The position numbers and the translations under genes were made by a program. 64,000 bases of DNA, taken from Alloascoidea africana (lineage: Eukaryota; Ascomycota; Alloascoideomycetes; Alloascoideales; Alloascoideaceae). Location of the stretch: contig JAKTTT010000036.1 in the NCBI GenBank assembly GCA_030581615.1, forward strand, positions 124,001-188,000, in the 5' to 3' direction. Below are positions 33,659 to 59,800 of this stretch, one piece after another (the first letter of the stretch is position 1; every line of letters starts with the position of its first letter). Below the pieces are notes generated by a model, which did no database searches, was not told where the DNA came from, and was given only the letters and a program-made list of their open reading frames with translations.

Positions 33659-36600
33659 TCACTCCTCTAGCAACTGTTTGTAGTTGTCTATCAAGCCTTG
33701 GATTCCAGAGATCTCTGCGTTATAATTCGTCAGCCTTTTTGAGTTTGACTCCTTTGCCTTCTCACTAGCTTTCGCAGCATAGTCTTCACGATTAACTGCT
33801 TTGCTCAATTGGTCCCTTGTTGTTACAAGCTTTGCCAGTTTCCGCTCTTGCTTTGCGATCTCAACGGCCAGATCAACAACATCTTTCACAAGAACATGCA
33901 CTGTACACGTTGGAGATATAACAGTTGAAGAGCAACCAGATCTGATTTCCTCATTTTCTTTTTTGATTTCCACAGTATCAGAAGCCCTAACTAAAGTCTT
34001 AATGCTTGTTGCTTGATCAAGCAAAGTTGAATATTGGTCCTCATTCGAAGTCTGGACAAACACTTGACCCTTCTTCAAAATGTTAAACTGAGAGAGGATA
34101 GATCGGGCTCCCTTCACAACGTCCAGAACAAACTCGTAGTCCCGCTCGGCCTTTGCATTGTCAAACTGCTTGTCGTAGACAGGATACGCCGCCTTCACGA
34201 TCGAGGCTGTCTCGTCGCCCGGTCGGCGAGGAATCCGCTGCCACAGCTCCTCCGTCACGTACGGCATGAACGGGTGGATGAACCTCAGTCCGGCATCGAT
34301 ACACGCGTACAGCGTGTCCTTCGCGGACTTGCTCTCCTCCGGCGTGCCGTCGATGAGCGCCTTGGAGTTCTCGATGTACACGTCGCACACATGGTACCAG
34401 AAGTTGTAGATCGAGCTGGTCGCCGTGAGGAAGTCTCGCTCCTCGAACGCCTTCTCCACGGTCTCTGCCGTCTTCGCCAGCTTGTGGAGAATCCACTGCT
34501 CCACGAGCGTCTCGCGGCCGCCAAGCACAAACTTGCCGGGCGGCACGTAGTCCTCGCCCAGTCTCCCCAGCACAAACTTGGTGGCCTGGTAGATCTTGTT
34601 GCAGAACTTGCGGTATCCCTCCACGCGCAGAATGTCGAGGTTGATGTCTCGTCCTCCCGTCGTGTAGGCACACAGCGCGAACCGGAGCGCGTCCGTCCCG
34701 CACTCGGGAATGCCGTTGGGATAGCTGATCCGCTGGCCCTCCGTGGCCTTCGCGATCTCGCGGGGGTCCAGGTTCCCGACCGCGAGCTTCGCGTGGAGCT
34801 TCTCCAGCGAGATCCCGCTGATCACGTCCAGCGGGTCCACCACGTTCCCCAGCGACTTGGACATTTTGCGGCCCTGCGCGTCGCGGACCAGCGAGTGGCA
34901 GAACACCTCCGTGAACGGGATGTCGCCCGTCATCTTGATGCCCAGCATGATCATCCGCGCGACCCAGAAGAACAGAATGTCCCACCCGGTCTCGAGCACC
35001 GACATGGGGTAGAAGTCCGCCATGTCCTTGGTCTTGTCGGGCCAGCCCAGCGTGGAGAACGGCCACAGCCCGGACGAGAACCACGTATCCAGCACGTCCT
35101 CGTCCTGCTCCAGCGTGAACGTGCTGTCCGGGAACGCCTTCTCGGCCTTGGCCTGGGCCTCGTCCTCGGTGCGTCCGGAGATCCACCACTTGGCCTCGTC
35201 CCTGTCCTGCTCCAGCCCTTCGATGTTGACAAAGTAGACCGGGCATCTGTGGCCCCACCAGAGCTGGCGCGAAATGCACCAGTCCTGGATGTGCTCCAGC
35301 CAGTGGAAAAACTCCTGCTCGGAGGACTTGGGGGTGATTGTGATCCTGCCCGATCTGACAGCCTTGATGGCCTCGTCAGCCATCTCCTTCTGAGCAACCC
35401 ACCATTGCGGCTTCAGCAACGGCTCGATAACGTCTCCGGACTTGGCACACATGGGAACAGTCATCGCATTGTCCTCCTCGCCAACATACAGCCCCTTCTC
35501 CTTCAGCTTCTCGACGACGAGCTTGCGGGCATCAAATCGCTTCACTCCCTGCCATTCGGGCCCGCAGTTCTCGTTGAGCAGCCCGTCGTCGGTCAGGATG
35601 TTGATGAACTCTAGACTGTGGCGTTTCCCTGTGTTGTAATCGTTGTTGTCGTGCGCAGGAGTGATCTTGACCGCACCAGTTCCAAACTCCATGTCCACGG
35701 CCTCCTCGTCGGTGATGATGGGCAGTTTCCGGTCCAGGAACGGGTGCACCACAAACTTCCCATGGAGGTGAGCGTATCGCGGGTCCTTGGGATGCACCGC
35801 GACCGCTGTGTCGCCAAACAGCGTCTCGGGACGCGTGGTCGAGATCTCGAGCGCCTCGCTCGAGTTCTCCACAGGGTATCTGAAGGTGAAGAGCGTGCCG
35901 AACTGGACGGGCTCCTTGTAGTTGGGCACAGACAGGAACGTCTTGCCCGGCACCTCCTTGTTGTCGACCTCGAGGTTCGAGAGCGTCGTGTTCAGGTGCA
36001 CGCACCAGTTCACCAACCGGTTGGCCCTGTAGATGATGCCTTCCTCGTGGAGAGTCACAAACGTCTCGACGACCGCCTTCGACAGCTTGGGGTTCAGCGT
36101 GAACGCCTCCTTGGTCCAGTCGTACGACGACCCCAGGCTCTTGAGCTGGTTCTTGATGCGCTGGTGGTACTCCTCCTTCCATTCCCACACCTTGTCGACG
36201 AACGCTTCTCGGCCCAGATCATGGCGTGTTAGCTTCATGCTGTTCCACAGCTGTTTCTCGACCACGGACTGCGTAGAGATGCCCGCGTGGTCAAACCCGG
36301 GCAGGAAGAGCACGGTCTTGCCTTTCATTCTGTTGTACCTGATCAGCGAGTCCTGGATCGCAATTGTCAGCCCGTGTCCAATGTGGAGGGCTCCAGTGAC
36401 GTTCGGCGGAGGAGCAGGAATCACAAACGATCCCTCTGGCTTGATCTTGCCATCACTGGTGAACTCTGGCTCGAAGAAGCCCTGCTTTTCCCACCACTCG
36501 TACCACGAGGACTCAACATTCTTGGGATTGTAAGCTTTAAGCGAGGGCTCCTCCAAAGAAAGCAAAATCTTCTTCTCTCCCTTTACAGTCTTATCCACAA

Positions 36601-36832
36601 ACTCGGGGATAGGCTCTATAGGCTTTTTCTGTTTCTTTTTCTTCTTTGGTTTGCTGTCTCTGTTGTGCACATTACTACTAGAAGTTGCATGGTTGTGTCC
36701 TGAAGAAGAAGTCAGATATCGAGCAGTGGCTTGCCAAACCTGTAAGTTTTTTCCTCGAGGTAGTTGTCTTATTCTGGCTATATTTGAGAAACATCTGTAT
36801 ATGCTGGAACCGGCACAATTGCCCAGATTCAT
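33659..36832 (-). CDS. Valyl-tRNA synthetase, mitochondrial-type copy
   Basis: A 1057-residue class I synthetase without introns. The N-terminus (MNLGNCAGSSIYRCFSNIAR..RYLTSSSG) is basic, Ser/Arg-rich and free of acidic residues, a mitochondrial presequence. A Lys-rich stretch (KPKKKKKQKK) then resembles a remnant of the eukaryotic cytosolic extension. The catalytic core has HIGH (GALHIGHGLT) and KMSKS (GRKMSKSLGNV), the editing domain between them (FGTGAVKITPAHDNNDY), and the anticodon domain. A coiled coil closes it. Residues about 72-925 are identical to the cytosolic copy at 56837-60080, while both ends differ. In S. cerevisiae one VAS1 gene serves both compartments through two starts; here the roles seem split. 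Only 82 bp separate its start from the CLP1 stop upstream. Confidence 0.93.
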   Translation of the reverse strand: MNLGNCAGSSIYRCFSNIARIRQLPRGKNLQVWQATARYLTSSSGHNHATSSSNVHNRDSKPKKKKKQKKPIEPIPEFVDKTVKGEKKILLSLEEPSLKAYNPKNVESSWYEWWEKQGFFEPEFTSDGKIKPEGSFVIPAPPPNVTGALHIGHGLTIAIQDSLIRYNRMKGKTVLFLPGFDHAGISTQSVVEKQLWNSMKLTRHDLGREAFVDKVWEWKEEYHQRIKNQLKSLGSSYDWTKEAFTLNPKLSKAVVETFVTLHEEGIIYRANRLVNWCVHLNTTLSNLEVDNKEVPGKTFLSVPNYKEPVQFGTLFTFRYPVENSSEALEISTTRPETLFGDTAVAVHPKDPRYAHLHGKFVVHPFLDRKLPIITDEEAVDMEFGTGAVKITPAHDNNDYNTGKRHSLEFINILTDDGLLNENCGPEWQGVKRFDARKLVVEKLKEKGLYVGEEDNAMTVPMCAKSGDVIEPLLKPQWWVAQKEMADEAIKAVRSGRITITPKSSEQEFFHWLEHIQDWCISRQLWWGHRCPVYFVNIEGLEQDRDEAKWWISGRTEDEAQAKAEKAFPDSTFTLEQDEDVLDTWFSSGLWPFSTLGWPDKTKDMADFYPMSVLETGWDILFFWVARMIMLGIKMTGDIPFTEVFCHSLVRDAQGRKMSKSLGNVVDPLDVISGISLEKLHAKLAVGNLDPREIAKATEGQRISYPNGIPECGTDALRFALCAYTTGGRDINLDILRVEGYRKFCNKIYQATKFVLGRLGEDYVPPGKFVLGGRETLVEQWILHKLAKTAETVEKAFEERDFLTATSSIYNFWYHVCDVYIENSKALIDGTPEESKSAKDTLYACIDAGLRFIHPFMPYVTEELWQRIPRRPGDETASIVKAAYPVYDKQFDNAKAERDYEFVLDVVKGARSILSQFNILKKGQVFVQTSNEDQYSTLLDQATSIKTLVRASDTVEIKKENEEIRSGCSSTVISPTCTVHVLVKDVVDLAVEIAKQERKLAKLVTTRDQLSKAVNREDYAAKASEKAKESNSKRLTNYNAEISGIQGLIDNYKQLLEE
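34056..36617. repeat. Near-identical 2,562 bp block, copy A (valyl-tRNA synthetase core)
   Basis: Matches 57231-59792 at a constant offset of 23,175 bp in direct orientation. The only differences I found are at 36518 (a, against g at 59693) and 36578 (t, against c at 59753), both synonymous and near one end. Translations of both copies agree in every frame checked, which implies base-level identity. The block begins and ends abruptly inside the two genes. Confidence 0.93.
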
Positions 36833-36914
36833 TCTATTAAACCTATGCTGGGGTTTGAACTACAACTAACTGTATCATGGGCTTTTCTGGTCAAGACCTC
36901 CATACACCTACACG

Positions 36915-38280
36915 TTACTCGTGGTAGCGGTAACCGCCCAACATGAGAACGCGGTTAGGGAGCCTGCCAGGAATCGGGAGAAGCACTTTTAGCTTCCGTT
37001 TCGTGTCGTCCGCCTCGACCCTTAAGCGAGAGAAAAGTTAGAAGAAACGATGATGGTGCAACGAATACAATCATAAAAGAACTTACACATGAATATAGCC
37101 CATCACGCAGCTTCGCTGGATGACTTCTTTAGAGTCGCCTACTTCAGCATGTAGAACAGCTAAAACGGCATTGGAAAGAGCAGCAGAGGATGGCTCTACC
37201 AGAGAGATAAGGTCAGAGTCGCCTGTTTCATCCGAGCCTTCTCCAATTGGTAAAACTGAAGACATTACGAGATTTGAACCTGTTCAGTCACAGGTTAGTA
37301 AAAATCTCATAGAAGCTGGTATGGTTTTAAAAAACTCACTTTCTGATGCTTTATAAATAGTGACAATTGAGTAATCAATTGTAATTGTGTAAGGCGAAAG
37401 GCTCATTTTTGGTGTACCGTAGAAATGTTCTTTTATTGCCTTTTGTTGAACAGATCTGAGAAATTTTTCATCTCGATCAACACAACCGCCTGATTTAGGC
37501 AGTTTCAATGCTTTAATCTGGGATTTATCTTTGAATCTTTTTTTCAGATCAACGTATAACCGTTCGTTTCCCATAACGAAAATCACGTTTACTAGAAAAC
37601 AACAAAAAAAAAAAACAGGATTGGGTAAGATGATGCTGACGGAGATAAAAGAGAAGCTTGTAGGAGTACTCACTTTCGAAATCAGATACGATTTCTGATA
37701 TCAGTCCATATCCAGTATCTCTATCGACAATTCCTGAAGTGTCAACAATCAAACCAGAGTCTCTCACTAGGAGTAGAATTGAGTTAGATTTAGTCTCGGA
37801 ATTTCAATAGCCTGAGGTGTATGCTTACCTCGTTTGTCCTCCTCTATTCTAGAATTCACAACAACAGCCATTTGTGAAACCAGGTATTTGTAATATTTGA
37901 GATTATCTAGTGGAGATTCATATCCATAGTAATACACCAACGGTTGCTTTTGGTGTAATGAAGAAACACCAGTTGTCCAACTGTCACCCCAGCCTTGTTC
38001 AACATCCAATATGTCCGAGATGGGAGTTGCTGAAAGACCTCCAGGTATCGTATATACACCCTTTACAGAAACAAAAAAAAATCGTTAGCTCAATGTTCTG
38101 TGCTTCTGATTTCTATCAACTTGGCATACCTCTTGTGGGTCGAGATTCACATATAAAGGCTGTCTCCCTAGTTTATTTGCATAAGCTGATAGAATTTTAG
38201 ACAGAGAGGATTTCCCAGAATCCTTGCCACCAACAATGAGAACTCTTGGTGGTTTACTCCCAATACCAATACCATTTTCA

Positions 38281-38311
<31 letters not shown>

Positions 38312-38791
38312 CAGATTGACATCGAAGAGTCTCCAGTGAAAAGTGGGCATTAAGGTATACAAACATTGGGGTTTCCATTGATAAATATTCCGAACTGAGT
38401 TGACCCGAATATTGAATTTTGGATCCTGTCCATGAAAAAATGCTGCTTTTTGTTGCTGTGAATCGAAATTCAACATCGTTTGGTAATTCTGTTCCAAATA
38501 TTTCTGCTAAACCTTCTACAACCTAAACATGTCAATGCGGGGGGGAAAAAAAGGGCAATTTGTTAGAATTAGAAGCCATTTCTATCTATATACTTATTTA
38601 CCTTTATCGTTACAGTTTCGTCGAGTCCAGCCTCGAATCGCCATTCAGATCCAGGTAAAAGTGTTACTGTTACTGGTTCAGCAGCATTCTGCCAGAAAGA
38701 AGAAAAACAAAAGGTTAGCCATATCATACGCCTTGAACAAGAGCAACCAGCATACCGGTCTATCCGTAGCAGAAAACCCAGGCAATGACAT
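36915..38791 (-). CDS. CLP1: CLP1, mRNA cleavage factor IA subunit, eight exons
   Basis: Eight exons (38791-38756, 38688-38602, 38522-38130, 38060-37829, 37766-37674, 37591-37340, 37279-37087, 37020-36915) join in frame to 463 residues. Key parts: WRFEAGLDETVTIKVVEGLAEIFGTELP (N-terminal domain), Walker A GGKDSGKSSL, PLYVNLDPQEGVYTIPGGLSATPISD, the RDSGLIVDTSG strand, and the end KLKVLLPIPGRLPNRVLMLGGYRYHE, as in S. cerevisiae Clp1. The P-loop binds ATP; Clp1 with Pcf11 acts in 3' end cleavage and polyadenylation. A run of about ten Gln sits just before the P-loop domain. All donors are GT and most introns have CTAAC-type branches (62-82 bp). It diverges from the LETM1-domain gene over about 207 bp. 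Confidence 0.93.
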
Positions 38792-40799: not shown

Positions 40800-42833
40800 T
40801 CAGACAACACGAGGAGACGGAGACGGAGCCGGAGCAGCAGCAGCAGGAGCAGCAGCAGTGGTGGTGGTCTTTACCTCTTCTTTCCGCTTGTAGCTTTCCA
40901 GATGGGCGTCTTCCTCTGCGACGATGGTATGGGTATGGCCCTCAGCGGGACAAAACAGGGTTCCTCCTCTGGATATGGTGCACATGGGGATGGATTGGAA
41001 CCAGGGGTCGTTGAAAATGTGTTTGAGAGTGGCTCTTTGGCCAGGATCAATCCTCAGCATTTGGCCGATCAGCGGTCTGGAAGAGTGCGGCAAGAGACGA
41101 AGCAGGCGGTACGGGCCCTTAGCAGAACGGTGATGGCCCGTGCTGGCCTTGACGTGGGGGCTGCTGCTCTGGACTGCTGGCTTTGCCTGTGCTGGCTTTG
41201 CTGGAGGGTCTGCGGCCGGGAGCTCTGGCGACTCGGGCGGCGGCGTCACCTCCTGCGTGGCCACGACGGCCTCGTCCGGCGACACGGCCGGTCGCGTGTC
41301 CGGCGCGTCCGGCTCGTCTACGGCGGAAAACAGCCGGAACGAGTTGTCCGCGAGCTTTGGGGCCTTCCAGGGAAAGCGCCTCAGGCTCATACAGCAGAAG
41401 ATGATGGCCACGGACCAGATGTCGGTGGGCTGGGGGTCGTAGCGGCGGCTGCCCAGAACCTCCGGGGCCAGGTACGGGTCCGAGCCCACGACGCCGTGGG
41501 TCAGCACCAGCTGGTCCTCGAACGGGTAGCGGAACACGGTCGCAGAGCCAAAGTCGATGATCTTGATGATTCCCTGCTGGGTCACCACGCAGTTGTCCAG
41601 CTTCAAGTCCCGATGAGCCAGTCCCATTGAGTGCAAGTACTGGACCCCGGACACAATCTGCTTGAAGCAGCACCAGATCTCGCCGCGCGACATCTGGCCC
41701 GACATGACGATCGCGAAAAAGTCGAACGGACAGTACTCCATCACCTCGAAGTACTTGCCGTCCTCGTGGATCATGTCCAGCGTCTCGATGATGTTGACGT
41801 GCTGCAGCGTGGACCCGATGCAAAACTCCGCGGTGACCTTTTTCGCGTAGTCTTTTTCGGACTCGTTCGAGTGTCGCGGCCGGAACTCTTTGACCGCGAA
41901 CATTCGAGAGTCCGAGTCCCGTTGCAGCAGTCGCACAGACCCTCCCGCGCCCGAGCCCAGAATCTTGCCGATTTTGCCATACTTGGATGCCAGCCCATCC
42001 TCGGAAAACGGCGCAGCGGCTGACGCGGGCGACACGGGCTCCACGGGCGAGCGTGGGAACACAGAGTGCTGGGGCGTGTAGGGCAGCGAGTAGCTGGAGG
42101 CCGTCGTGGCCGTCGTGGCGGATGTGGAGCCGCTGGAGGCAGAGAAGAAGCCAGATGAAGGAGACCGGCCCTGATTATGGCCTTGATGGCCCTGGTAGCC
42201 GTTGGCACCGCCATTGGGGCTGTAGAGCAGGCTGGACTGGGAGGCCTTTGCGGAAACCGTCTTGGGCTGCGGCTGGCGAGGGCTGGAGAAGAGCGACGAC
42301 TTTTTCTTGGCCAGCTTTGCACTCTTGAGGTTGGACGAGGACGACTTCCGGCTGCTGGGGCGGAAAAACCGTCTCAGCTCGAGAAACGACTGGTAAGACG
42401 ACCTGGAGCTGAGCGAAGACGAGATGGAGATGGACTCCTTGTCGGAGATGCCGTCCATGGCGTACGAGCAGTCTGGTCCAGTTCCTACGGAGCTGGCCCC
42501 AGCTCCATTGTGGCCAGAGCCAGAGCCAGGGCCAGAGCCAGGGCCCGTGTGCCCTCGCTTCGCCGTCCGGATCCGCGACATGGGCGAAGCCAGCCCCAGG
42601 CTGTACAACGAGGCCGAGGACCTGGGCGAGCGGATGGCACGCTGGGGCGAGTCCTGGGGTCGGTGGTCGGGATCTGCGACCGCGATGGAGGGCCTGAAGG
42701 GCAGGTCGAATTTGGGGGTTCTGGGGTCGCAGGTTTCGTCCCTGACGATGGAGATGGCCGGCGGCACATGGGCCGTGGAGGCCGGGCGCCGGGACCTGGA
42801 CCTGGACCTGGATCGCGAACCGAGAAAGGGCAT
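40800..42833 (-). CDS. SAT4/HAL5-type protein kinase (NPR/HAL5 fungal group)
   Basis: A 677-residue kinase from ATG 42833. The N-terminal 280 residues are low-complexity ([10 protein letters not shown], Ser-, Gly- and Ala-rich). The kinase domain starts at about 285: [58 protein letters not shown] (diagnostic for this group), [24 protein letters not shown], and [11 protein letters not shown]. An insert of about 90 Pro/Ala/Glu-rich residues splits the C-lobe before [17 protein letters not shown]. cerevisiae Sat4 (Hal4) and Hal5 stabilise the Trk K+ transporters and nutrient permeases at the plasma membrane and give salt tolerance. The gene is strikingly GC-rich, unlike most neighbours, and its reverse strand is therefore full of spurious open frames. 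Confidence 0.88.
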
Positions 42834-43010: not shown

Positions 43011-45320
43011 TTAGTCGCTGTCGTCGCTGTCGCTCGCCAGGTCCAGCTCGGGAATCGACACGTCGTCGTCGTCCTGGTCGTCCTGGTCGTCGAGGTTGTT
43101 GTTGAGACCGTAGTTGTTGGTGCTGGTGCTGGTGCCGGTGCCGGTGTTATTGTTATTGTTGGTGGCATTATTGTTATTGTTATTGCTGCTCTCGTTCTGT
43201 TCCTGGGGGTGCACAGACCCTTCTCGAACTGCTTCGCCAGAAACAAACAAGTCGCCCTTCGGATGTTCTTCCACCAGCTCGACCTCTGTAGACTGGACGG
43301 CCTCCAGGGAAGCCCCGAGGTCTGTTCGAGGTCTCTTTGAATCTCGCACCGTCCCGTCCTCGTCCTCCCGTGTGCGTGCCTTGGGCATGGTCGCGGTACG
43401 AAACCCATCGCCGACATTGTCCATTTCCATTTCCATTTCCACTTCCATATCCATATCCTCTTTTTCTTGTTCCTCTTCCACTGTCTTCTCGGTTGCGGTC
43501 TGGTCCTTCAGCCGGTGTATGTTCACAACGTAAAGCCCGTTGTCCGTGTCATATGTCCTGGGCATCGGGGGCAGTCGCGGGTGGATCAGCGTGGACATCA
43601 AAGCGGTATCCGAAACCAACGACGAAACCATAGGTGCTATGCTGAATCTATCGTTAAGTCCAGGATACAGAGCACACGCTTCCATCAGCTCCCGCAGACT
43701 CGCCGATAATTGCTTCCTACCCGTGCTTGCGTTCTTGGTCTCGGATGCACTGATCAGAGCATACCGGTATATCGATGCTCTTGATTGAGTGCTCAACATT
43801 GGACATGTCGAAACAACAACCGTGAAAAATCTCTCCACTGTCTCCAAAATGCCCACAGGCGTGTCTTCAACAAACTTTGGCAAATGCGATAACAGATCCG
43901 CCAAAGCAGAATCCCCAGTTTTCGAACCCCCAGTCGCCTTACTGTTCACACCTGGAGGTTCCGGAGGCTGGGCCAAATATGTACTCTGTGTAATAAGCTT
44001 GTCCAAAAACGGATTAAAACTAGCAGATGCAATTGAAACGAGATCAAGCAGTTCAGAAACAAGTGCCAGTATCTTTACCAACACCTCTTTATTCGCATCA
44101 ACACTTGTCTTATTCGTCTCGGGCAAATAACACACCTGTTCTAAACACCCGAAAATCTCATAAATATGGGGTAACATTTCTCGTTCCAATTTCAAAACCA
44201 ACTCTTGTAAAAATTCAACAGCAAGAATGTGAAGTTTGGATATCCGATACACAACAATCTGTTTGATATTCCCTGTTCGTGAATTTATAGAGAAATGTGA
44301 ATAGTGTTTATTTAAAGAAAATAGAAACTTGATCAAAAGTACCAGTTTGCCAATCGGTACCTTCACAACGGTTTGTGTAGGTGTGGATAAAAACGCAGAA
44401 AGAAGCGAAAAATAGATGCCAAAAAGCTTGTTGCTCTCACTGGACAACAAATCATCTGGATCAATCTCGGAAAGTGGTTTCATTGTTGTTGTTGATATCA
44501 CCAATGGATTACTATCAATAAGAGACTTGAAAATCACATTGTACTCCTCATCATCTGAAAAATCGATATATTTTTCAATCGACTCTTTAACTGTTGTCGT
44601 GATACCGGAAAGTACAGAGTTGAGAAGTTTCCTCCATTCCTGATGTTCAGAACCTTTCGGTGCCGTAAGGTGCAAAGACACAAAGCCTATGCCGATATTA
44701 CGCTTCATCTCTTCCGATAAGCCCACAAATTTGTTTGGTTGCAGCGAATCGATCAGAAATGCGTGGTATCTTTTCGCAAACGGCCGGAATGTCGTGGAGT
44801 GCGATTGTAATACTCTGTTAATCTCTGGTATAGTGTACTCCACAACCTCTTCATCACGTCGAGACAACTCCAACAGCGCACTGATATATGCAGAAAGCCT
44901 TGGTGTCAAAATCTCTCTCGTGAAAGTCGGCTTACCTCGAACTTGTTTGCATATGGACGAAATGGCCTCAATCACAACAGACTGGGTCACCAGTGGATCT
45001 GGAGCCGAGCTTTCCAGCATTTTTATCAGCATTGTAAGCCAGGTAGCGCCTTCCGAAGCCAAACACACAACATTCCTCTCGATCGTGGCTTTGCACAACT
45101 GAACGCCGCAGAATCGCAAAACCAATTGGTGGGATCTCATCAGCGCCGAGATCCGTGAGCTCAGCTTTGTCAGTGTGGACTTTGAAATGTCACCAGAGGA
45201 AAGCACCCGCGTATTGTAAAACACTGCCAGCACATGCTCCAGGTTCTGAGCAAGCTTGTCCGCCTGCGCGGGGCTTAGAAGCACCGACACGAGCGTGTCC
45301 AGCGAGATATCCGAAGACAT
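43011..45320 (-). CDS. RIX1: RIX1/IPI2, pre-60S ribosome assembly factor
   Basis: A 769-residue nuclear protein; start taken at ATG 45320 (MSSDISLDTLVSVLLSP), since the open frame upstream lacks a fitting sequence. The first 550 residues form an alpha-helical repeat of the RIX1/PELP1 type (ATIERNVVCLASEGATWLTMLIKML early on, followed by SRRDEEVVEYTIPEINRVLQ and HLTAPKGSEHQEWRKLLNSVLSG). The C-terminus is disordered with Met/Glu repeats, Asn and Thr runs, and the acidic end SIPELDLASDSDDSD, much as in other Rix1 proteins. Rix1 works with Ipi1 and Ipi3 and with Rea1 on late pre-60S particles, in ITS2 processing and nuclear export. The coding ends are more GC-rich than the middle. Confidence 0.8.
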   Translation of the reverse strand: MSSDISLDTLVSVLLSPAQADKLAQNLEHVLAVFYNTRVLSSGDISKSTLTKLSSRISALMRSHQLVLRFCGVQLCKATIERNVVCLASEGATWLTMLIKMLESSAPDPLVTQSVVIEAISSICKQVRGKPTFTREILTPRLSAYISALLELSRRDEEVVEYTIPEINRVLQSHSTTFRPFAKRYHAFLIDSLQPNKFVGLSEEMKRNIGIGFVSLHLTAPKGSEHQEWRKLLNSVLSGITTTVKESIEKYIDFSDDEEYNVIFKSLIDSNPLVISTTTMKPLSEIDPDDLLSSESNKLFGIYFSLLSAFLSTPTQTVVKVPIGKLVLLIKFLFSLNKHYSHFSINSRTGNIKQIVVYRISKLHILAVEFLQELVLKLEREMLPHIYEIFGCLEQVCYLPETNKTSVDANKEVLVKILALVSELLDLVSIASASFNPFLDKLITQSTYLAQPPEPPGVNSKATGGSKTGDSALADLLSHLPKFVEDTPVGILETVERFFTVVVSTCPMLSTQSRASIYRYALISASETKNASTGRKQLSASLRELMEACALYPGLNDRFSIAPMVSSLVSDTALMSTLIHPRLPPMPRTYDTDNGLYVVNIHRLKDQTATEKTVEEEQEKEDMDMEVEMEMEMDNVGDGFRTATMPKARTREDEDGTVRDSKRPRTDLGASLEAVQSTEVELVEEHPKGDLFVSGEAVREGSVHPQEQNESSNNNNNNATNNNNNTGTGTSTSTNNYGLNNNLDDQDDQDDDDVSIPELDLASDSDDSD

Positions 45321-47197: not shown

Positions 47198-50100
47198 CTA
47201 CCAATCTTTCAGTGTCTTCAACAGAGGCATATCTATTGCCCGAGAACTTTTTAGTGCCTCCGTGGCTTTGAGTCGGGAGTAGTAAATAGGACAATCCTGG
47301 GAGACGCACTCATTGCCACCCGATTTTTCGCCATTTGCGCACTGACGACAGATCATTTCGAGCTCTTGCAACTTGTTCTCTCGTTGCTTGATTCTCGTGG
47401 TCAACACGCCGATTGCATTGTCGTTGTCAGTAGAGCACGTTTCGCACACTTTTAAGCGGCCTTGGCCAGGTCGTCGGAGACAAACAGGACACAGATTGGA
47501 TTCTCCATAAACACGAAGATTGCCAAACTCTCCTTTATTCGTTAATCCAACAGGCTGCACAGAATCGTATTTTGGCATTTCTTCATACCATTGTCGAACA
47601 TCAACTCCCATTACATTAAAAATTCGTTCTAATGGCGGTAAGATATTCTTGTTGATGTAATATTCGCTATCCAACTCCAGATTGTGATTGTTCAAAAGCG
47701 TATCGGGGAAAACACACCGATCTCGTAATCGAGTTCCATGCCGCTTCTTGATCACAACATACCGGACCCTTTCCTTGTATTGTGGCTCCGCCCTGCTGTC
47801 TTTCTCCATGTGTCGAGCAGCAAGTAATGCTCCTGGTGGAACACTACCACTCTCTTTATAAGATCCCAGCTTGACTTCTTTCGCAAAGCAAAAATCTTGA
47901 ACTGATACATTCCCGAGCATGATGTTTCTCCACTGGTCCTGTAAATACTTTTTAATTTGGGATAGATCACACGTTTCAAACAGCACCTTTAAGGCCTTCT
48001 CTTCAATCTTTTGTTGTGCAGGTGTGCCATCCCGGCGAACCGTCTCAATTCCTTTCGCATCAAAAATCGGCTCTTTCTGATTTTCATCTTCATAGGAATA
48101 TCCAACGTATCTTTTCTTTGCAAGTAAAACACAAGGATGATACACTTTTTCAAGCTTCAACTTTATGGGACTGGGATTCATATTCGTAACCTGTTTGCTG
48201 ATTTCTCTACCAATTGCAAATGCCTGTTCTCGGCTTTTATGCGGTAAGTAAACAAATAAAGAATCCGTGTCTCCGTATACAACCTCAGCCCCCCATTCTT
48301 GGTTAGAATGGATTAGATCAATGGCCCTTTCCAAAGTTTCCCGCCCAGTTTGAACAATACTGTCTGCAATTTCCGCACATGGCATACGTCCGGAAAACGT
48401 TGCTGAGGTGTATCCATAAGTGACATTCGCAATAAGTTTGAGGGCCAATTGCCGATTATTACAAAGTTTTTGTAATGCAATGTCAGATTTTGGAAAAACT
48501 CCCATCGCATCCTTGACCATGACTCTGGTTTCCAAAATTTCGCTCAACATTTTGGATAGAAGAGATTTCCTAATTGACGGTTTGACAAACATGAGGCCAT
48601 TTGGTGATATTGTTATGTCTTTCTGTAACAAATCGAGTATTCCTGGCTTCAAGTCAAGATGTGTAACCCCAATCTTGTTCTTACTCGTTTTACTGGATAG
48701 CCCAATGTTGTTCCTTAGCCGTCCCAGCAATGTTGAATAGCAGTAATTGTAAGCAATCATCACTGAAGGATACAGCGACTGGAAATCCAAAACGACAAGC
48801 GGGCTATTGTAAAATTTGGATTCCGGTTCCATGACCAGTGGAAGACACTCCAGAGCATCTTGTTTCGCCACCTGTTTCTTTGACGGCGATATAAGCATAA
48901 AGTTTTCCGCTTTGGTTAAGCGGGTCATTAGAGACTCAATCTTGTATTGAGAACCTCGCGTGAATACAGAATAAAAATTGATCCCAATAAGTCTTGCCTG
49001 CTCTGCAGTTCTGGATATCAATTCTTGCATTTCAATGAGTTGTAGATTCAACTTTATCCTCCTCGTAAAATATTCAAAAACCACTTTTTGATTGCTTGGT
49101 TCCTTAGAATTGAAAAATCTTGTTAAAGTTTGGTGCGAATAATGAGGAATTCGTATATGGAGCACATGAAAGACAACATTCTCAAAAGAGTAGCCTAGCA
49201 AGTTTAGATATGACCTTAACGGTCGCCAAATGTTCAGCATGTGTCTTCCTGTGATTCTGATTGCAGAGGCCTGTGTATATCCCCATCTGTCATTCGTCTT
49301 TCCAAAGCTTTTGCTCTTAGTTCTTGATAGCCTACGACAAAAATCCAATGAGTATTTTTTGCGACATCGGTCAATTAGATAACCCCAAGAAGCGTTATGG
49401 ATCTCATAACCACATAAAACATCAGGATCTGTTACATTCACCAGATCAGCAAAACATTTTAGCATGTCGAGTTCATTTAGAAATAGTTCCAACTTGGTTC
49501 GAGTGAGTACTCGAAACCTTTGGAGATCCTTTTCTGATTCTCCAACGACCAGAATTCCGGACTCGGTGCCTACTCCAAACCGGTCTTCCAACTGTTCGGA
49601 TTCGATTTTCCAAAACATTGCAGTGATCTCATCTTTTTCAGGATCGGGATAAAATTTGCCTCTTGTCTTGATGAAAAGTTCAAGGGTAAGGATTCCCAGA
49701 CTGTTGTACGTTTTACTCTTTGATTGCGAACGGAGCTTTTGTGTAGGATATCTAAATCCGTACTTACTTTTCGGCGTCGCCATCTCAATTTGAGTGAAAA
49801 ATTTGTCTTTGTTAAATTTTGATTTTAGATTTGTCCTTTGCGTACTCGTCTTTTGTTTTTGAACTTCAACCCATTTGGCAACACTTTCATAGGATGGCGG
49901 TTGAGGGAGATAGGCCAGTTTTGCCTTTGCCAACTGTTTGCTCTCTTTATTTACACCTTCGTCATTCATATTCTTCAATATGTTCAACTCTTGGTTTAAA
50001 TTACGTAGCTTCTCTAACTCGTTCATAATCGAATATCCCTTTTTAAAGACAAAGTCGGGCAGGAACTCTGTTGAATCCCCTTTAATGTTCCCCTTGACCC

Positions 50101-52000
50101 CAGCATATACCATCTGCTTCTTTGGGAGATCACTATCCTTACTGTAATAAGGATCTCGATAGATGATTCTCGGTAGACCAAGAGCTTCTAAATCGTCGAG
50201 TATTGTGCGAGGCTCTGGAGGTACAACTCGATATTCAAGAAGTCGACTAGCCATATCAAAACTGTCTGTCGCTTTTCGAACGGCAATGTCAGATGATGAT
50301 GATGATGGTTTGTTTAGAGGGGTAGAGGTGACACCGTCAACATTATGCCTGCTCACGGCGACAGCAGCATTGGAGCCTTCTGGTTTGTTTCCCCTGATGC
50401 CTACATCTTCAGCATGTCTCTAAACAAACAAAAAAACTTTGTTAATACATAATTGTCAACATTAAATCATTCATGTACTTGCCTTTCGTTTTCGAGAAAG
50501 AGCCAACACTTGTGAATCGCTTTTGGTCATGTCTCTGGTCACATTCTGAGAGCTGCGATCGTCTAGTTTGAAGCTGTTCTTTTCTTCATTGACATCAGTT
50601 TCTTCTTCTTCTTCTTCATCGTCAATGTACTCTCTGTTTTCGCTCTCGTCCTCTTTCTCCTCATCAATACGCAGCTCATCTTCGATCGCAGCTAGAACAT
50701 CAAATCCATCATCCTCCAAAATCTCTTTTTCCAGCTCCATAAACGTATCATTTGCTTCTTCATCAACAAAACCACTATGATCGCCATCACCTTCTTCTTC
50801 AATCTCCGGAACCAAATATAATACTGTCTCCAAGGCTGTTGGTACCAAATGCTCGAACGGCGCTTTTTTCACAAACGTTTCAAACTTGACCTTTTGTTTG
50901 CATTTGCGCTTGCTCTCTTCAATGCATAGAGAGAATTGCTCGTTCAAATCCTCGTTCGCAAGCCATGCATTATCACGATAGTGCCTATCTTGGGCGCCAG
51001 TCCCCTGAGCCGCGTATGGCTTACACCCTTTCGAGGCTCTTTGACTCTGAATGTCGCTCCATATTTCTTTTGTTGAATGGAGAAAGATTAACTCTGGATT
51101 AAGGGGTTTGATTCTTTCGACAAAATCATGGTGTAGATTTCTATTTTCAAGGTCAAATCTGTTCTCGATCCAAAGAGGGCTAATGTCGACTTCCAATGGA
51201 CATTTGCCCATCTTTGGAAATGATCTAGGATCAAGAAGGAGGCTCGGAGTTACTTTACTGGCAATCCACACTGCCAATGACTTTGACGCTTCGTAATCAT
51301 CTTCTGTATTCTCATCGTCGTCTTCTTGATCTACTTCCGTCTCATTGTCTTGATTCTTGCGTGCCTGTCTAAACAAGGCTTTTGATAGCTTTAACCAGCC
51401 ACATCCAAACAAATTAAAGTCCACAAAGAATTGTAAAATATAAGGGATATGCGATTCAAAGGTTTGCCATCGACGTCCCAGAATCTCTCCCTTCTGGAGC
51501 AGGTCCACTATTCGATGCAGCAATGACGGATTTAAAAAGTAGATCTTGAAATAGTATTCCCACCCAACATGAAAGCCGTAGAACGGAACCGCTTTGCAAA
51601 CCGTTACTCCTGCGATATAGCGAGCAACGTTTTTCTGGCTGGCTCTAGCCGGCAAAGTCTTGTTCTCATCGCGCTTGAACGATCGCGCGACGGCATCTTC
51701 GAGAGCCTGGAAAAGACGCGCCGACTCGCTCACAAAATCGTCCGGATTCTTCGCGCCCCTGTACTCGACATAAACATAGGGGAAGACGTTGTGGACATGG
51801 GCCAGCACGGCGTGGCCGCCATCTGTTGTGCCAAAAACGCGACAGATCGGGACCTGGGCGTAGTGTCTCGGACAAGCGAAACCCTGGCCGGGATGGGTCG
51901 CCGAGCGGTCCAAGGACGACGGCAGAGCCAGATACGAGTCGAAATCGTTCAGCTGGATGCTCAGAAAGCTCCCCGGTCTGTCTGGGCTGGCGCTGGCCAT
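47198..52000 (-). CDS. REV3: REV3, catalytic subunit of DNA polymerase zeta, one GC-AG intron
   Basis: Exons 52000-50483 and 50419-47198 give 1579 residues (S. cerevisiae Rev3 has 1504). The 63 bp intron has donor GCAAGT, branch TATTAAC and acceptor TTTAG; using a nearby GTACAT donor would break the frame, so a GC-AG intron is needed. The N-terminal B-family domain starts MASASPDRPGSFLSIQLNDFDSY. Polymerase motif A is DFQSLYPSVMIAYNYC, motif B KLIANVTYGYTSATFSGRMPC, motif C YGDTDSLFVYL. Two Cys clusters close the protein (CPVCLRRPGQGRLKVCETC and CRQC..CVSQDC), the second binding 4Fe-4S. Pol zeta extends past DNA lesions in translesion synthesis with Rev7. The first 600 bases are GC-rich. Confidence 0.95.
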
Positions 52001-52108
52001 GATGATAGGCGATGAGGTTGGAGGCGATTACAGTTGCGCGGTCGGTCGCAAGCGATTCAGTCACCGCTTCCACCAGCGACTCCAGCAAGACCGCCACCGC
52101 CGCCAGCC

Positions 52109-53463
52109 ATGCCGGAGCAGAACAAGTTCGTGGTCTATCTGCGATTCCCGTTCCCGCGGAACGGGTTCGTGGACCCCAAGCCGGTGGGTGATTGCTCTCG
52201 TGGGCCTGGGCCGTTTCGCACTGCTCTGCCGCTAACCAGACAGGTACTAGATGCACTGGGACTCATCCAAAGAGAAGAGCCTCTGGGAGATAGTTTCTCG
52301 AACGCCGAGGTCTGCGGTGATGGACTGTATGTATCCCAGTATATCCGTATAATGCTATTAATTGAACAGTGTAGTAACCTCAGCATTGCCTTTCTAGGGA
52401 ATGTAATGTATGGGATAGATCATGGAGCTGAGAGGCAAACATGTCACTAACTGGCGAAACAGTGCAAAGAAGTTCGATGTTAGCGTTCCTTTCATTCTCC
52501 AGCAGGCAGCATGGCTATACGAGAAAGAGCTCCAGCAGGTGCAAACCCATATGAGACGGATATCGTCCATGTCGGACACCGTGTCTGGTGGAGGCCTCCC
52601 TGCGAACCAAGGCTCGCCTGCCTCTGGGGGAAGTTTCAAGAAAGAAGAAGGGCCGATAAGATCGTCGTTTGCTAATCTACGGCACTTGATTAGCCATAAT
52701 CAGCAGTCTTCTTCGTCCTCGTCCTCGGGAACGTCGAGGCCGCTTCACATCGCTGTCAAGTCATCGGACGGCCTGCCTGGGCCTCGAGAAGCCAGCGTGG
52801 ACACGGCTTTGCGTGACAAGTCCAAGGCCCAGGACGCTGGCAATGCTTCTTTTTACAAGGAAATGAGTGCTGCGTTCACGGCTGGAACGGCTAATAAGGG
52901 GATTATGGCTGAGCCCGATACATTCTACTACGATGGACTGGATGAAGAAGCAGACGAAGAGAGCGGATTTGACTCCAGCGACAGCGAGATGCTAGGCACA
53001 GACTACCAAGACACAAAGAAGCTGTTAAGTATTTCTAGGATTCTACCCTCTGGAAGAAAGCCGGAACATTTGAGCACCAGAAATGGGAATGATGCCAGCA
53101 TTGAAGAGGGCGAAGAGGACGATCAGGAGGACTTTGATGATGTTGACGAGGGCTTTGACAATGCCTTTGTTCCATTTGACGAGCAAGAGATTGAGCTCGT
53201 TACAGCGCGGGACGCAATAACTTCGGGTAGTGTAAAGGGCTCTGATCTAGGAAAGAAGAGCGAGGAGCTGGATAGCTTTAATTCTTCCTTTAGTGATTTG
53301 GCAGGTATGAGACAACTCCAACATTTTGTTCTCCTCATTTGATCTTGTGCTGGAAGTCTAACATTTGTATGTTATAGCTGCCGGATTGAGTAAGTCGGCA
53401 TTAGAAGAAGAGATTCTACTGATGAAGAATAATAAGTCATCGGGATCCTCAGACAGATACTAG
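52109..53463 (+). CDS. ATG29: ATG29, autophagy scaffold protein, four exons
   Basis: Exon 1 52109-52183 (MPEQNKFVVYLRFPFPRNGFVDPKP), exon 2 from 52251 (MHWDSSKEKSLWEIVSRTP), exon 3 to 53304, exon 4 53378-53463. The order FVVYLRFP, GFVDPKP, WDSSKEKSLW, then NWRNSAKKFDVSVPFILQQAAWLYEKEL matches the Atg29 N-terminal domain, and the end LSKSALEEEIL matches SKSALEEAL of S. cerevisiae Atg29. Intron 1 has donor GTGGGT and branch GCTAAC; intron 3 has donor GTATGA. The exon 2-3 junction is uncertain: donor 52310 with acceptor before 52433 gives SRTPRGKHVTNW in frame (363 residues in all). Atg29 with Atg17 and Atg31 builds the phagophore assembly site under starvation. Its start lies 108 bp from that of REV3. 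Confidence 0.85.
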
Positions 53464-54236: not shown

Positions 54237-55275
54237 ATGCTTTTGGAACGCCGACCCTCATTCAAAAGTCTGGTTGTTCTGCCAAGATTCTACTCCACTC
54301 GTCCTCCGAGAGTCTCCATCATATCCCCCGTCTCTTTCAGAGTACTACAAGACCGGGCTCAAGAATCCGTAGATGGGGGAAAGCTGGTAACTGTTGATGC
54401 CAGCTGGTATCTCCCAAACTCGCCACGCAATGCTATCAAGGAATACATTGAAGAGCGAATCCCAGGATCAGTCTTCTTTGACGTGGATGCTGTCAAAGAT
54501 GAGGCTAGCCCTTATCCACACATGCTACCCTCAAAGGAAAAGTTTGGAGAAGAAATTGGTAAGCTGGGGATTTCGCCTGAAGATACTGTTGTGATTTACG
54601 ATAAAGATGGCAACTTTTCAGCTCCTAGGGTGGCATGGACATTCTCCGTATTCAAACACCCAAGAACTTACATCTTGAACACCTATGCCATTTATAAAGA
54701 AATGGGGTATCCTCTGGAAAGAGGTATCAAGGGGACTCCAAAACCGATAACCTATGAAGCCCAAGGGTTTGAGGTTGATGAAGTAATTTCATACGAAGCA
54801 CTTCTCAAGATTGTCCAAGACGCCAAGGAACTGTCAGGATATACAATTATCGATGCAAGACCTACTGGAAGATGGGAAGGAATTGATCCAGAGCCTAGAG
54901 AAGGATTATCAAGTGGACATATTCCCAATTCTATCTCAATTCCATTTTCTTCTGTTCTTAACCCAGAAACCAAAACTTATAAAGAGAAAGATCAACTGGT
55001 TTCACTATTTGAGGAAAAAGGTGTCACCCCTGATAAACCTATCATTGTCATGTGTGGAACTGGAGTCACTGCTTGTGTTGTAAAGACAGCACTTGACGTT
55101 GCCGGCCTTGGTGGAAAAGGAGTAAAAGTTTATGATGGCAGTTGGACGTGAGTATATCTATATCTTGATGCGGTTAAGTTGAGGACCTTTTTTTTACTAA
55201 CTGGTGCTATTTTTGTGCTAAAGCGAATGGGCTCTGAGAGCAGATCCCGGACTTATTGTGAAAAGCAAGGATTAA
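54237..55275 (+). CDS. TUM1: TUM1, rhodanese-type sulfurtransferase, one intron
   Basis: Exons 54237-55147 and 55224-55275 give 320 residues (S. cerevisiae Tum1 has 304). The 76 bp intron (donor GTGAGT, branch TACTAAC, acceptor AAAG) joins VYDGSW to TEWALRADPGLIVKSKD. Two rhodanese domains are present; the first has LVTVDASWYLPNSPRNA and the second TIIDARPTGRWEG with the active loop CGTGVTA, of the mercaptopyruvate sulfurtransferase type. The N-terminus (MLLERRPSFKSLVVLPRFYSTRPP) looks like a mitochondrial presequence; yeast Tum1 is found in mitochondria and cytosol. It passes sulfur from Nfs1 to Uba4 for the 2-thiolation of tRNA wobble uridines. Confidence 0.93.
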
Positions 55276-55349
55276 TAGCATGAGGGTCATAAAAGATATA
55301 ACTGATATTTATCGCCACCAAACTCAGTTTTCTGTTTCTTTTCTGTATT

Positions 55350-56204
55350 TCACTGAGGGCCTGAATACACAGTCCCTTCAATTCCGTTTTTGTGATACTT
55401 TTTGGGCGCAGTATCTCCTTGTGAACTGGCGCTAAGGTCAGACTCTTTAACAGGAATAGATCTTACCTGTTGATCAGCATTTGCATGAGCATCACCTTTA
55501 GCACCTTCCCAGGTAAACTCATCGTATAGATGATCGTTTTTAATGTCAGTAGGAGAATGGGGTTCCATACCATCGTCAACAGCCTCGGCGTAATTGGGTA
55601 GAACATCTCCGTATTCATTTGAACGCTTCGCATAGTACTGTTCTCTCTTCTCCAAGAAAACTTGCTTGCCCTTTAAGTAACCTTCCCCAAGTATCCGTTT
55701 CAAATCCTCCTGAAGCTTTGCGCTATCTCCTGATTTGACGGACTCCAATAGCTTGTCAATCTGTTGTAACATGTAGCTTTTCTCCTGGCTCTCTGGGAGC
55801 GGATCTCCAACAGCCCGTTGTTTGGAAATGCCATCTGGAGCGGTAGACTGTCCTGTCGAGTTCAAATTAAGAGCTCGTTCTACTCCTGCCACAAATTTAG
55901 ATCTATTCTCCCAAATTTCTTTTGCTGTTGCCTGGAGCTCCACACTGTTTTTACATTTCAACAGTTTCATTAACATCTGAGTAAGCTCATTATAGGAAGA
56001 GCTGTTTGCTGGATCATTAGATCTTGCCACGTTCAGCGTTTTCTCTACTTCTTTTCTCTGACTTCGTTCAATCAAGTACTTCAAGGTTTGAGTCAGATAG
56101 GCGAGATCTTTATGGTTCTTGGATTTCGAAATGAGATACAAAACCTTCAACAGGTATACTGAAACGGTGTGAGAAGAAGCAGAGGCAGTAGTAGCAGGTG
56201 TCAT
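55350..56204 (-). CDS. Unrecognised protein of 284 residues
   Basis: A clear frame from ATG 56204 (MTPATTASASSHTVSVYLLKVLY) to 55350, convergent with TUM1 (74 bp gap). Residues 10-110 are predicted helical with many Leu, Lys and Glu (LISKSKNHKDLAYLTQTLKYLIERSQRKEVEKTLNV). A second helical part at about 140-190 ends YAKRSNEYGDVLPNYAEAV, and the C-terminal 80 residues are polar and acidic. No signal peptide, membrane span or catalytic motif is visible. Codon use looks like that of the neighbours. I do not recognise the family. Confidence 0.65.
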   Translation of the reverse strand: MTPATTASASSHTVSVYLLKVLYLISKSKNHKDLAYLTQTLKYLIERSQRKEVEKTLNVARSNDPANSSSYNELTQMLMKLLKCKNSVELQATAKEIWENRSKFVAGVERALNLNSTGQSTAPDGISKQRAVGDPLPESQEKSYMLQQIDKLLESVKSGDSAKLQEDLKRILGEGYLKGKQVFLEKREQYYAKRSNEYGDVLPNYAEAVDDGMEPHSPTDIKNDHLYDEFTWEGAKGDAHANADQQVRSIPVKESDLSASSQGDTAPKKYHKNGIEGTVYSGPQ

Positions 56205-56836
56205 ATTGCGATAAAGTTATCCTTTCCTTCAAAATTAGAAACATCTAAACTGGAAACCGATTTATATACCAAACCATTAAAGATCAAACGCCCTTTGATA
56301 ACTTTCCGTCCATCAACTATATTCTTTGTCTTTGTCTTTGTCGCTTGCATGAGTCTAGTCCAATCTTTTACAATCAACATGAAACTGGATGGTGTGAAAT
56401 GAACATTAACATCAATAGAGTGCTCGTCAATCGAATATTCCAAGCATTGAGGTGTATAATGGATTCTTCTTCATCAAGTGGAGGAGAAAGAGCAAACCTA
56501 GTAGCTTCCGTTGATCCACCAGCTCTCATACTATGATACTTCAAAGAATGAAACGGTACAAGCTCCTAGGCTGGTTGGTTCTAACAGAAGATATGCTTTT
56601 GTTATCAGGCCCAAATGAAGAATGTGAATTGATATAGCTAACAATCACGACTCAACACCTTTGCCTCAACACGACCAGCTCCAGAACCTCGTGTGAGAAG
56701 AGTTTGGATCAAAAGATTACAGGAATAGTTCAATGCTGTATCCACTCATCATAGATCTATTAACTTTATAAACTTTATCAACACAAGGGCTTTGTCGATC
56801 CTATACACCACCACTAGATTAAATATTCCAAATGAA
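56205..56836. other. Spacer of 0.63 kb with doubtful short frames
   Basis: On the minus strand a frame without its own ATG runs to 56201 (FMLIVKDWTRLMQATKTKTKNI..GKDNFIAI), overlapping the start of the next gene, and a separate frame starts at ATG 56530 (MRAGGSTEATRFALSPPLDEEE). They are in different frames and no intron joins them convincingly. They could be a small spliced gene that I cannot resolve. Confidence 0.25.
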
Positions 56837-59800
56837 TTACAATTTCAAATTTTCAAAGTTTGCAATCATAGACTTGATGCCTGCAATTTCAGCATCATAA
56901 TCCTTCAGCTTCTTCTCATTAGATTCTTTTGCTTGCTCGCTGGCCTTCACTGCATAATCAGCCTTTGTCACAACCTTTTCAAGTTGCTCTTTAGCCCTTT
57001 CAATCTTGGTAAGCTTCTTTTCTTGCTTGCCAATCTCCGCATCCAAATCAACGAGACCCTTGACCAAAACATGAACGGTACAATGAGGTGAAATAACTTC
57101 GAGAGAACAGCCTGTTGGAATAGCATCTGTCTGCTTGAGCACATTAACATCCTCAACAGCCTTGATCAAAGATATAATGCTTGACTTTTGAGCCCAAATT
57201 GTTTCATAGTCTGCATCATTGTCAATTTGTACAAACACTTGACCCTTCTTCAAAATGTTAAACTGAGAGAGGATAGATCGGGCTCCCTTCACAACGTCCA
57301 GAACAAACTCGTAGTCCCGCTCGGCCTTTGCATTGTCAAACTGCTTGTCGTAGACAGGATACGCCGCCTTCACGATCGAGGCTGTCTCGTCGCCCGGTCG
57401 GCGAGGAATCCGCTGCCACAGCTCCTCCGTCACGTACGGCATGAACGGGTGGATGAACCTCAGTCCGGCATCGATACACGCGTACAGCGTGTCCTTCGCG
57501 GACTTGCTCTCCTCCGGCGTGCCGTCGATGAGCGCCTTGGAGTTCTCGATGTACACGTCGCACACATGGTACCAGAAGTTGTAGATCGAGCTGGTCGCCG
57601 TGAGGAAGTCTCGCTCCTCGAACGCCTTCTCCACGGTCTCTGCCGTCTTCGCCAGCTTGTGGAGAATCCACTGCTCCACGAGCGTCTCGCGGCCGCCAAG
57701 CACAAACTTGCCGGGCGGCACGTAGTCCTCGCCCAGTCTCCCCAGCACAAACTTGGTGGCCTGGTAGATCTTGTTGCAGAACTTGCGGTATCCCTCCACG
57801 CGCAGAATGTCGAGGTTGATGTCTCGTCCTCCCGTCGTGTAGGCACACAGCGCGAACCGGAGCGCGTCCGTCCCGCACTCGGGAATGCCGTTGGGATAGC
57901 TGATCCGCTGGCCCTCCGTGGCCTTCGCGATCTCGCGGGGGTCCAGGTTCCCGACCGCGAGCTTCGCGTGGAGCTTCTCCAGCGAGATCCCGCTGATCAC
58001 GTCCAGCGGGTCCACCACGTTCCCCAGCGACTTGGACATTTTGCGGCCCTGCGCGTCGCGGACCAGCGAGTGGCAGAACACCTCCGTGAACGGGATGTCG
58101 CCCGTCATCTTGATGCCCAGCATGATCATCCGCGCGACCCAGAAGAACAGAATGTCCCACCCGGTCTCGAGCACCGACATGGGGTAGAAGTCCGCCATGT
58201 CCTTGGTCTTGTCGGGCCAGCCCAGCGTGGAGAACGGCCACAGCCCGGACGAGAACCACGTATCCAGCACGTCCTCGTCCTGCTCCAGCGTGAACGTGCT
58301 GTCCGGGAACGCCTTCTCGGCCTTGGCCTGGGCCTCGTCCTCGGTGCGTCCGGAGATCCACCACTTGGCCTCGTCCCTGTCCTGCTCCAGCCCTTCGATG
58401 TTGACAAAGTAGACCGGGCATCTGTGGCCCCACCAGAGCTGGCGCGAAATGCACCAGTCCTGGATGTGCTCCAGCCAGTGGAAAAACTCCTGCTCGGAGG
58501 ACTTGGGGGTGATTGTGATCCTGCCCGATCTGACAGCCTTGATGGCCTCGTCAGCCATCTCCTTCTGAGCAACCCACCATTGCGGCTTCAGCAACGGCTC
58601 GATAACGTCTCCGGACTTGGCACACATGGGAACAGTCATCGCATTGTCCTCCTCGCCAACATACAGCCCCTTCTCCTTCAGCTTCTCGACGACGAGCTTG
58701 CGGGCATCAAATCGCTTCACTCCCTGCCATTCGGGCCCGCAGTTCTCGTTGAGCAGCCCGTCGTCGGTCAGGATGTTGATGAACTCTAGACTGTGGCGTT
58801 TCCCTGTGTTGTAATCGTTGTTGTCGTGCGCAGGAGTGATCTTGACCGCACCAGTTCCAAACTCCATGTCCACGGCCTCCTCGTCGGTGATGATGGGCAG
58901 TTTCCGGTCCAGGAACGGGTGCACCACAAACTTCCCATGGAGGTGAGCGTATCGCGGGTCCTTGGGATGCACCGCGACCGCTGTGTCGCCAAACAGCGTC
59001 TCGGGACGCGTGGTCGAGATCTCGAGCGCCTCGCTCGAGTTCTCCACAGGGTATCTGAAGGTGAAGAGCGTGCCGAACTGGACGGGCTCCTTGTAGTTGG
59101 GCACAGACAGGAACGTCTTGCCCGGCACCTCCTTGTTGTCGACCTCGAGGTTCGAGAGCGTCGTGTTCAGGTGCACGCACCAGTTCACCAACCGGTTGGC
59201 CCTGTAGATGATGCCTTCCTCGTGGAGAGTCACAAACGTCTCGACGACCGCCTTCGACAGCTTGGGGTTCAGCGTGAACGCCTCCTTGGTCCAGTCGTAC
59301 GACGACCCCAGGCTCTTGAGCTGGTTCTTGATGCGCTGGTGGTACTCCTCCTTCCATTCCCACACCTTGTCGACGAACGCTTCTCGGCCCAGATCATGGC
59401 GTGTTAGCTTCATGCTGTTCCACAGCTGTTTCTCGACCACGGACTGCGTAGAGATGCCCGCGTGGTCAAACCCGGGCAGGAAGAGCACGGTCTTGCCTTT
59501 CATTCTGTTGTACCTGATCAGCGAGTCCTGGATCGCAATTGTCAGCCCGTGTCCAATGTGGAGGGCTCCAGTGACGTTCGGCGGAGGAGCAGGAATCACA
59601 AACGATCCCTCTGGCTTGATCTTGCCATCACTGGTGAACTCTGGCTCGAAGAAGCCCTGCTTTTCCCACCACTCGTACCACGAGGACTCAACGTTCTTGG
59701 GATTGTAAGCTTTAAGCGAGGGCTCCTCCAAAGAAAGCAAAATCTTCTTCTCCCCCTTTACAGTCTTATCCACAAACTCGGGGATAGGCTCTGCCTCCTT

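Follow-up and report, generated by a model that had tools for sequence, protein, structure and literature searches.

Two genes for valyl-tRNA synthetase (ValRS) lie 23 kb apart on the minus strand of a 64,000-nucleotide stretch of the Alloascoidea africana genome (contig JAKTTT010000036.1, positions 124,001 to 188,000; hereafter the window, with positions counted from its first letter). Over some 2.5 kb the bodies of the two genes are nearly identical, whereas their homologous C-terminal ends are old, and the near-identical core carries a plateau of raised GC content with matching edges. This combination probably reflects a long-running mosaic concerted evolution, through GC-biased ectopic gene conversion, of two paralogues that appear to have divided the work between compartments.

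Gene 1 (33659..36832) is a single open reading frame (ORF) for a ValRS of 1057 residues, probably the mitochondrial form, and gene 2 (56837..60080) encodes a ValRS of 1056 residues in two predicted exons, probably the cytosolic form; these two genes and all of their parts named below are on the minus strand. That gene 2 comprises more than one ORF adds to an original prediction made for this DNA from its letters alone. Exon 1 (60080-60065, with the ATG at 60080) and exon 2 (59991-56837) would be linked across a predicted intron of 73 nt (59992..60064), which joins two open frames and splits the sixth codon after its first base; its GTATGT donor, GACTAAT branch site and TTTAG acceptor, which look normal, were read from the sequence. 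Similarity places both products with ValRS, nearer to it than to the isoleucyl (IleRS) or leucyl (LeuRS) enzymes. The Pfam domain tRNA-synt_1 is matched with E 4.6e-160 by gene 1 and E 3.9e-160 by exon 2 of gene 2, and Anticodon_1 is matched by gene 1 (E 1.4e-33, residues 778-924) and likewise by exon 2 of gene 2. A PDB search made with gene 1, the core of which gene 2 shares, returned the ValRS 1gax as top match (594 bits) and IleRS as the next (178 bits). The class I catalytic signature motifs, which we take to be HIGH and KMSKS, are present in both translations. Matches to Val_tRNA-synt_C, the domain of the C-terminal tRNA-binding arm, are weak: gene 1 scores 22.9 bits (E 1.1e-4) and gene 2 scores 21.0 bits (E 4.1e-4), in either case under the curated cut-off of 25.9 bits. 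In the LPG-DHAGI stretch a CTG codon stands at a leucine common to the Thermus enzyme, which indicates that CTG is translated as leucine here.

The core of gene 1 (34056..36617) matches that of gene 2 (57231..59792) over 2,562 bp, gap-free and with two mismatches (36518/59693 and 36578/59753), both of them silent third positions (Asn AAT/AAC and Gly GGA/GGG), so the block of this length with two silent differences that the original prediction had described is indeed there. Measured from the N-terminal edge of the block, the mismatches stand at about 100 and 40 bp. All 853 of the 853 whole core codons give the same amino acid in both genes, and the synonymous divergence (dS) of the core is 0.0034 with a non-synonymous divergence (dN) of 0. 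A 2.5-kb match of this kind cannot arise by chance. Just past the block edges the two genes differ immediately. The block contains the catalytic, editing and anticodon-binding domains; its N-terminal start directly follows the Lys-rich stretches, and its C-terminal end, at gene 1 residue 927 (aligned near Thermus residue 747), comes directly after the Anticodon_1 match. What the two genes have in common is the enzyme body; they differ in the address label at one end and, beyond the C-terminal edge, in the stretch that weakly matches the tRNA-binding arm. When the window was compared with itself by blastn (E <= 1e-5), only the ValRS block and a short array at 25062-25138 were returned, which rules out a longer duplicated segment. 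The array is a perfect 19-bp tandem repeat in 4.1 copies, and no ORF of at least 150 residues runs across it.

The ends of the same genes tell of a much older separation. The diverged C-terminal ends, which include the putative tRNA-binding arm (33659..34055 in gene 1, 56837..57230 in gene 2), are identical at 65 of 130 aligned residues, the half that had been estimated originally, and differ at 164 of 390 nucleotides. Their alignment is colinear and interrupted only by one gap of a single residue close to its end, so they are homologous rather than acquired; ends taken from unrelated genes are thereby ruled out, for the C-terminus only. Their proportion of synonymous differences (pS) is 0.80, that is, saturated, with a dN of 0.40. 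At fourfold-degenerate sites they differ at 15 of 22 positions (0.68, where full saturation predicts 0.70) as against 1 of 394 in the core (p 2e-21). Since dN falls far below the silent change, the C-terminal ends look selected. At the other side of the block, the N-terminal ends (36618..36832 and 59793..60080, the latter with the intron included) are identical at 15 of 67 aligned residues. Divergence on both sides of the block inside the genes, as predicted, is thus a fact.

Silent sites this saturated mean that the duplication is old and that the core is young in appearance only. A simple recent duplication of the whole gene, against which the original prediction had argued, is ruled out by the homologous C-terminal ends, and to date the duplication from the core would wrongly make it look very recent. 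The comparison of silent divergence between core and flanks that was proposed with that prediction sets the low dS of the core against C-terminal ends that are saturated, which points to an old duplication followed by homogenisation of the core. Possible relatives were also looked for with a pattern scan, which gave 23 matches in viral contigs, none of them confirmed, and 94 in genome contigs that led to 13 bacterial ValRS loci and no fungal one; the C-terminal ends matched these 13 loci weakly and in a mixed fashion, from which nothing was concluded.

A second line of evidence comes from base composition. With Met, Trp and stop codons excluded, the GC content of silent third codon positions (GC3s) is 676/815 (0.83) in the core and 165/402 (0.41) in the four ends together (p ~1e-48). 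The ends range from 0.34 to 0.55, the two C-terminal ones standing at 53/132 (gene 1) and 49/129 (gene 2). Fourfold sites give the same picture, with 324/394 in the core versus 53/166 in the ends (p 5e-30), while the first and second codon positions shift little (0.47 versus 0.42). In copy 1 the best-fit points of change in GC are 36361 and 34132, some 256 and 76 bp in from the edges of the block; those of copy 2 (~59535 and ~57306) lie at about the same distances. GC3 is correspondingly lower at the block edges (93/146) than in the interior (583/669; p 3e-10), for edge zones that were chosen with the profile already in view. Within the two genes, raised silent-site GC is confined to the homogenised segment.

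Such a composition could be the mark of codon selection, the core having acquired its silent-site GC through the codon preference of a highly expressed enzyme, and ValRS is, as a matter of general knowledge, well expressed. We give this explanation very little credence. The four ends belong to the same reading frames and yet keep their low GC3s, as do the hexokinase ORF (0.40) and an ORF that we take to encode a desaturase (0.46). Moreover, the codons enriched in the core, among them GCG, ACG, TCG and CTG, are not the preferred ones in the ends, nor in the hexokinase or desaturase ORF, which makes translational preference a poor explanation. GCG has a share of 0.53 in the core, compared with 0.05 for the ends and 0.15 for 18 further ORFs of the window (a background that excludes the kinase at 40800 and likewise the ORF at 43011); the corresponding shares are 0.49, 0.09 and 0.17 for ACG, and 0.42, 0.09 and 0.13 for TCG. 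Codon selection also leaves the near-identity of the two cores unexplained. Just as hard to believe is an introgression or horizontal transfer by which a GC-rich core from another lineage replaced both native cores. The core is indeed unlike 19 of the 20 other ORFs examined in the window in its base composition, but GC declines inside the block, which is unexpected for a foreign piece, and the process would need either two replacements with the same end points or one replacement plus a conversion.

How exceptional the cores are can be judged from the rest of the window. Among the 20 other ORFs taken as genes, 19 have a GC3s between 0.34 and 0.53, and one, a kinase, reaches 0.78. When the 2,562-bp block was slid along the window and its GC compared with that of 400-bp flanks, the two top peaks of contrast, at 57267 and 33956, were the two cores; none of 47,192 positions away from them, which overlap and are not independent, reached the values observed for the cores (0.139 and 0.175), the best (0.128) being at the kinase. 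The kinase ORF (40800-42833; Pkinase, E 1.2e-48) keeps its GC3s of 0.78 along most of its length. It may have a close converting paralogue beyond the window or be located in a recombination hotspot, or its composition may have another cause. Another GC-rich region, with 300-bp windows of up to 0.63, extends from 51601 to 53000 and covers the 5' end of the gene for DNA polymerase zeta, REV3, as well as part of a divergently transcribed ORF. REV3 itself appears as two ORFs, 47198-50254 and 50471-52000, which jointly carry the expected polymerase domains and are separated by an intron or a frame break.

Repair of the heteroduplex formed during conversion favours G and C and is well established to drive base composition upward. 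Where conversion acts, the mismatches of the heteroduplex and their G/C-favouring repair raise GC, and a GC3 that is raised where mosaic gene pairs evolve in concert has been taken as a sign of conversion (PMC2720389; this and the other papers cited are used in extract). Neither homogenisation nor raised GC is proof on its own according to the same source; it is their combination that counts. The ValRS pair has both: a homogenised segment inside otherwise diverged homologous genes, as in mosaic concerted evolution, and a GC3 plateau that spans the same interval. The plateau is an independent pointer to conversion, which would have acted in many rounds and not just once, so that the conversion of a shared core envisaged in the original prediction gains support from composition as well as from the contrast in dS.

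The sequence of events would then be as follows. An ancestral fungal ValRS gene would have duplicated long ago and the copies would have split the work, gene 1 with a mitochondrial presequence and gene 2 with a cytosolic Lys-rich extension. Non-allelic (ectopic) conversion would repeatedly copy the 2.5-kb core from one gene to the other, the latest round being fairly recent, as the near-identity of the cores indicates, and at each round G/C-favouring repair would lift silent-site GC, from about 0.4 to more than 0.8. A shift in composition this large needs many substitutions, from which we infer a long-acting process. Taking the ends as the unbiased state, a simple equilibrium model puts the conversion bias at B ~1.9-2.3. 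The ends would escape because selection holds the targeting signals apart, and perhaps the tRNA arms too, and because diverged ends pair too poorly for conversion to extend into them.

A more modest version would have old paralogues that evolved independently and in which one core was overwritten only once, by a donor that was already GC-rich, for example through an allelic recombination hotspot. One event is enough to account for near-identity and sharp block edges, and GC-rich tracts that have no second copy in the window do exist, as the kinase and the 5' region of REV3 illustrate. On the other hand, the GC tract of the donor would have to end by chance, on both sides, about 75-260 bp from where the later conversion tract ended, and the two blocks happen to be the top two positions for GC contrast in the window. 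A single recent copying event would not alone leave such a scar in GC, whereas repeated GC-biased ectopic conversion would. We thus regard a single conversion as unlikely.

Several points weigh against repeated conversion as we propose it. The evidence consists of one pair in one genome, without an outgroup to date the duplication or to polarise the changes. The kinase, GC-rich at silent sites although it has no second copy in the window, tells us that a GC-rich stretch alone does not prove ectopic conversion. Both surviving core differences are no more than about 100 bp away from unique flank, close enough for short reads to be placed, and this is the pattern that an assembly which flattens differences would give; deeper ones might thus have been lost, and the exact count of two is uncertain. 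The GC plateau does not depend on this count. Carried further, the argument becomes one of artefact, both loci being real but their short reads merged into one consensus core, or one core pasted twice. However, reads would collapse in this way only where the cores were nearly identical to begin with, so that some silent differences might be hidden, while the replacement of a diverged core would hardly be expected. Each gene is intact, with an in-frame junction at the same alignment column, and an artefact would leave the GC plateau unexplained. It strikes us as quite improbable. Finally, the division of labour may be less strict than assumed, gene 2 possibly yielding a mitochondrial form as well, as discussed below.

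The assignment of compartments is plausible and relies on the N-terminal sequences. Over the first 58 residues gene 1 has 7 Lys or Arg and no Asp or Glu, and gene 2, which is Lys-rich, has 13 and 7, respectively; the presequence-like start of the one, devoid of acidic residues and followed by a short Lys-rich patch, and the Lys-rich extension of the other are thus as originally described. The hydrophobic moment (0.61 in gene 1 versus 0.49 in gene 2), together with the charge pattern, fits a mitochondrial/cytosolic split, in which gene 1 would be mitochondrial and gene 2 cytosolic. Lys-rich extensions of yeast cytosolic synthetases, that of ValRS included, bind tRNA (PMC3306390). Directly 5' of the gene 2 ATG and in frame with it, 19 open codons (60081..60137) form a candidate presequence with a non-AUG start; they contain no ATG, one basic residue and no acidic one. 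In Saccharomyces cerevisiae the single gene VAS1 uses two start sites to make both compartment forms (PMC3306390, PMC3990555), and a non-AUG codon serves as the start of another yeast synthetase (PMC3306390). Considered with these precedents, the open stretch suggests that gene 2 could also make a mitochondrial form. With its pyrimidine-rich end, it could equally be plain leader sequence.

In almost all yeasts that have been studied, a single ValRS gene is described as serving both functions (PMC3990555). VAS1 resembles the present pair in that the same enzyme serves both compartments, and differs from it in being one gene instead of two with almost one core sequence. Closer in organisation is Schizosaccharomyces pombe, where the cytosolic and the mitochondrial ValRS are encoded by separate nuclear genes, each of them mitochondrial in origin (Chiu et al. 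2010, via PMC3306390); the extract of PMC3306390 makes no mention of core conversion, and the comparison drawn here is one of gene organisation. As regards mode of evolution, the nearest parallels are the mammalian pairs BMP8A/B, DDX19A/B and TUBG1/2 (PMC2720389), two-copy pairs of which part is homogenised and the rest diverged, with GC3 raised in the homogenised part, significantly so in 2 of 3 pairs. These were proven across several species, whereas the ValRS pair is known here from one genome, that of a fungus, and its division is between an enzyme core and ends devoted to targeting and to the tRNA arm. Selection also resists conversion where copies must differ in the red/green opsin pair and in yeast heat-shock genes (PMC3924837), but in the opsins divergence is highest near two sites of a single exon, while the ValRS genes differ over whole protein ends. 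In yeast pairs derived from genome duplication, including ribosomal protein genes, conversion is likewise confined to coding sequence within diverged surroundings (PMC3924837). The ribosomal pairs however make the same product, in contrast to ValRS copies that appear compartment-split and are separated by 23 kb of the same contig.

Among the matches listed in one open-access library, ValRS in conjunction with gene conversion gave bacterial papers only, judged by their titles, and there was no such case among those listed for ectopic or GC-biased conversion, concerted evolution of synthetases, mosaic pairs with mitochondrial targeting, or GC3 in budding yeasts. The combination of a two-compartment ValRS pair with mosaic conversion and a rise in GC was thus not found in that library, relative to which it is new. 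The phenomenon is known, and the ValRS pair is a clear and unusually clean new case of it.

The remaining features of the window can be dealt with briefly. At 10749-11401 there is a tRNA-Cys gene and, some 80 bp downstream of it, an ORF that to our eye reads like a piece of a Ty3/gypsy integrase; Pfam had no match for it up to E 10, and it is possibly a retroelement remnant. The window also encodes an AAA protein with a fungal winged-helix domain, which marks the DNA as fungal.

What makes the ValRS pair valuable is that converting and non-converting segments share the same two reading frames, so that it amounts to a natural experiment with a built-in control. In one pair it would become possible to measure how strong the GC bias of conversion is, how conversion affects codon use, and how homogenisation is balanced against functional divergence. 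The pair also warns that this duplication, if dated from the core, would appear very recent, and suggests that changes to the ends alone can divide a synthetase between compartments. More tentatively, and with somewhat more doubt than confidence, the two compartment forms of an essential synthetase might be seen as one gene body at two addresses: continuing GC-biased conversion would keep the core common to both, with a bias of about B = 2 that overrides codon preference, and would leave adaptation to either the mitochondrial or the cytosolic tRNA-Val to the targeting region and the tRNA arm only. The edge of conversion would then set where the functional border of the enzyme lies.

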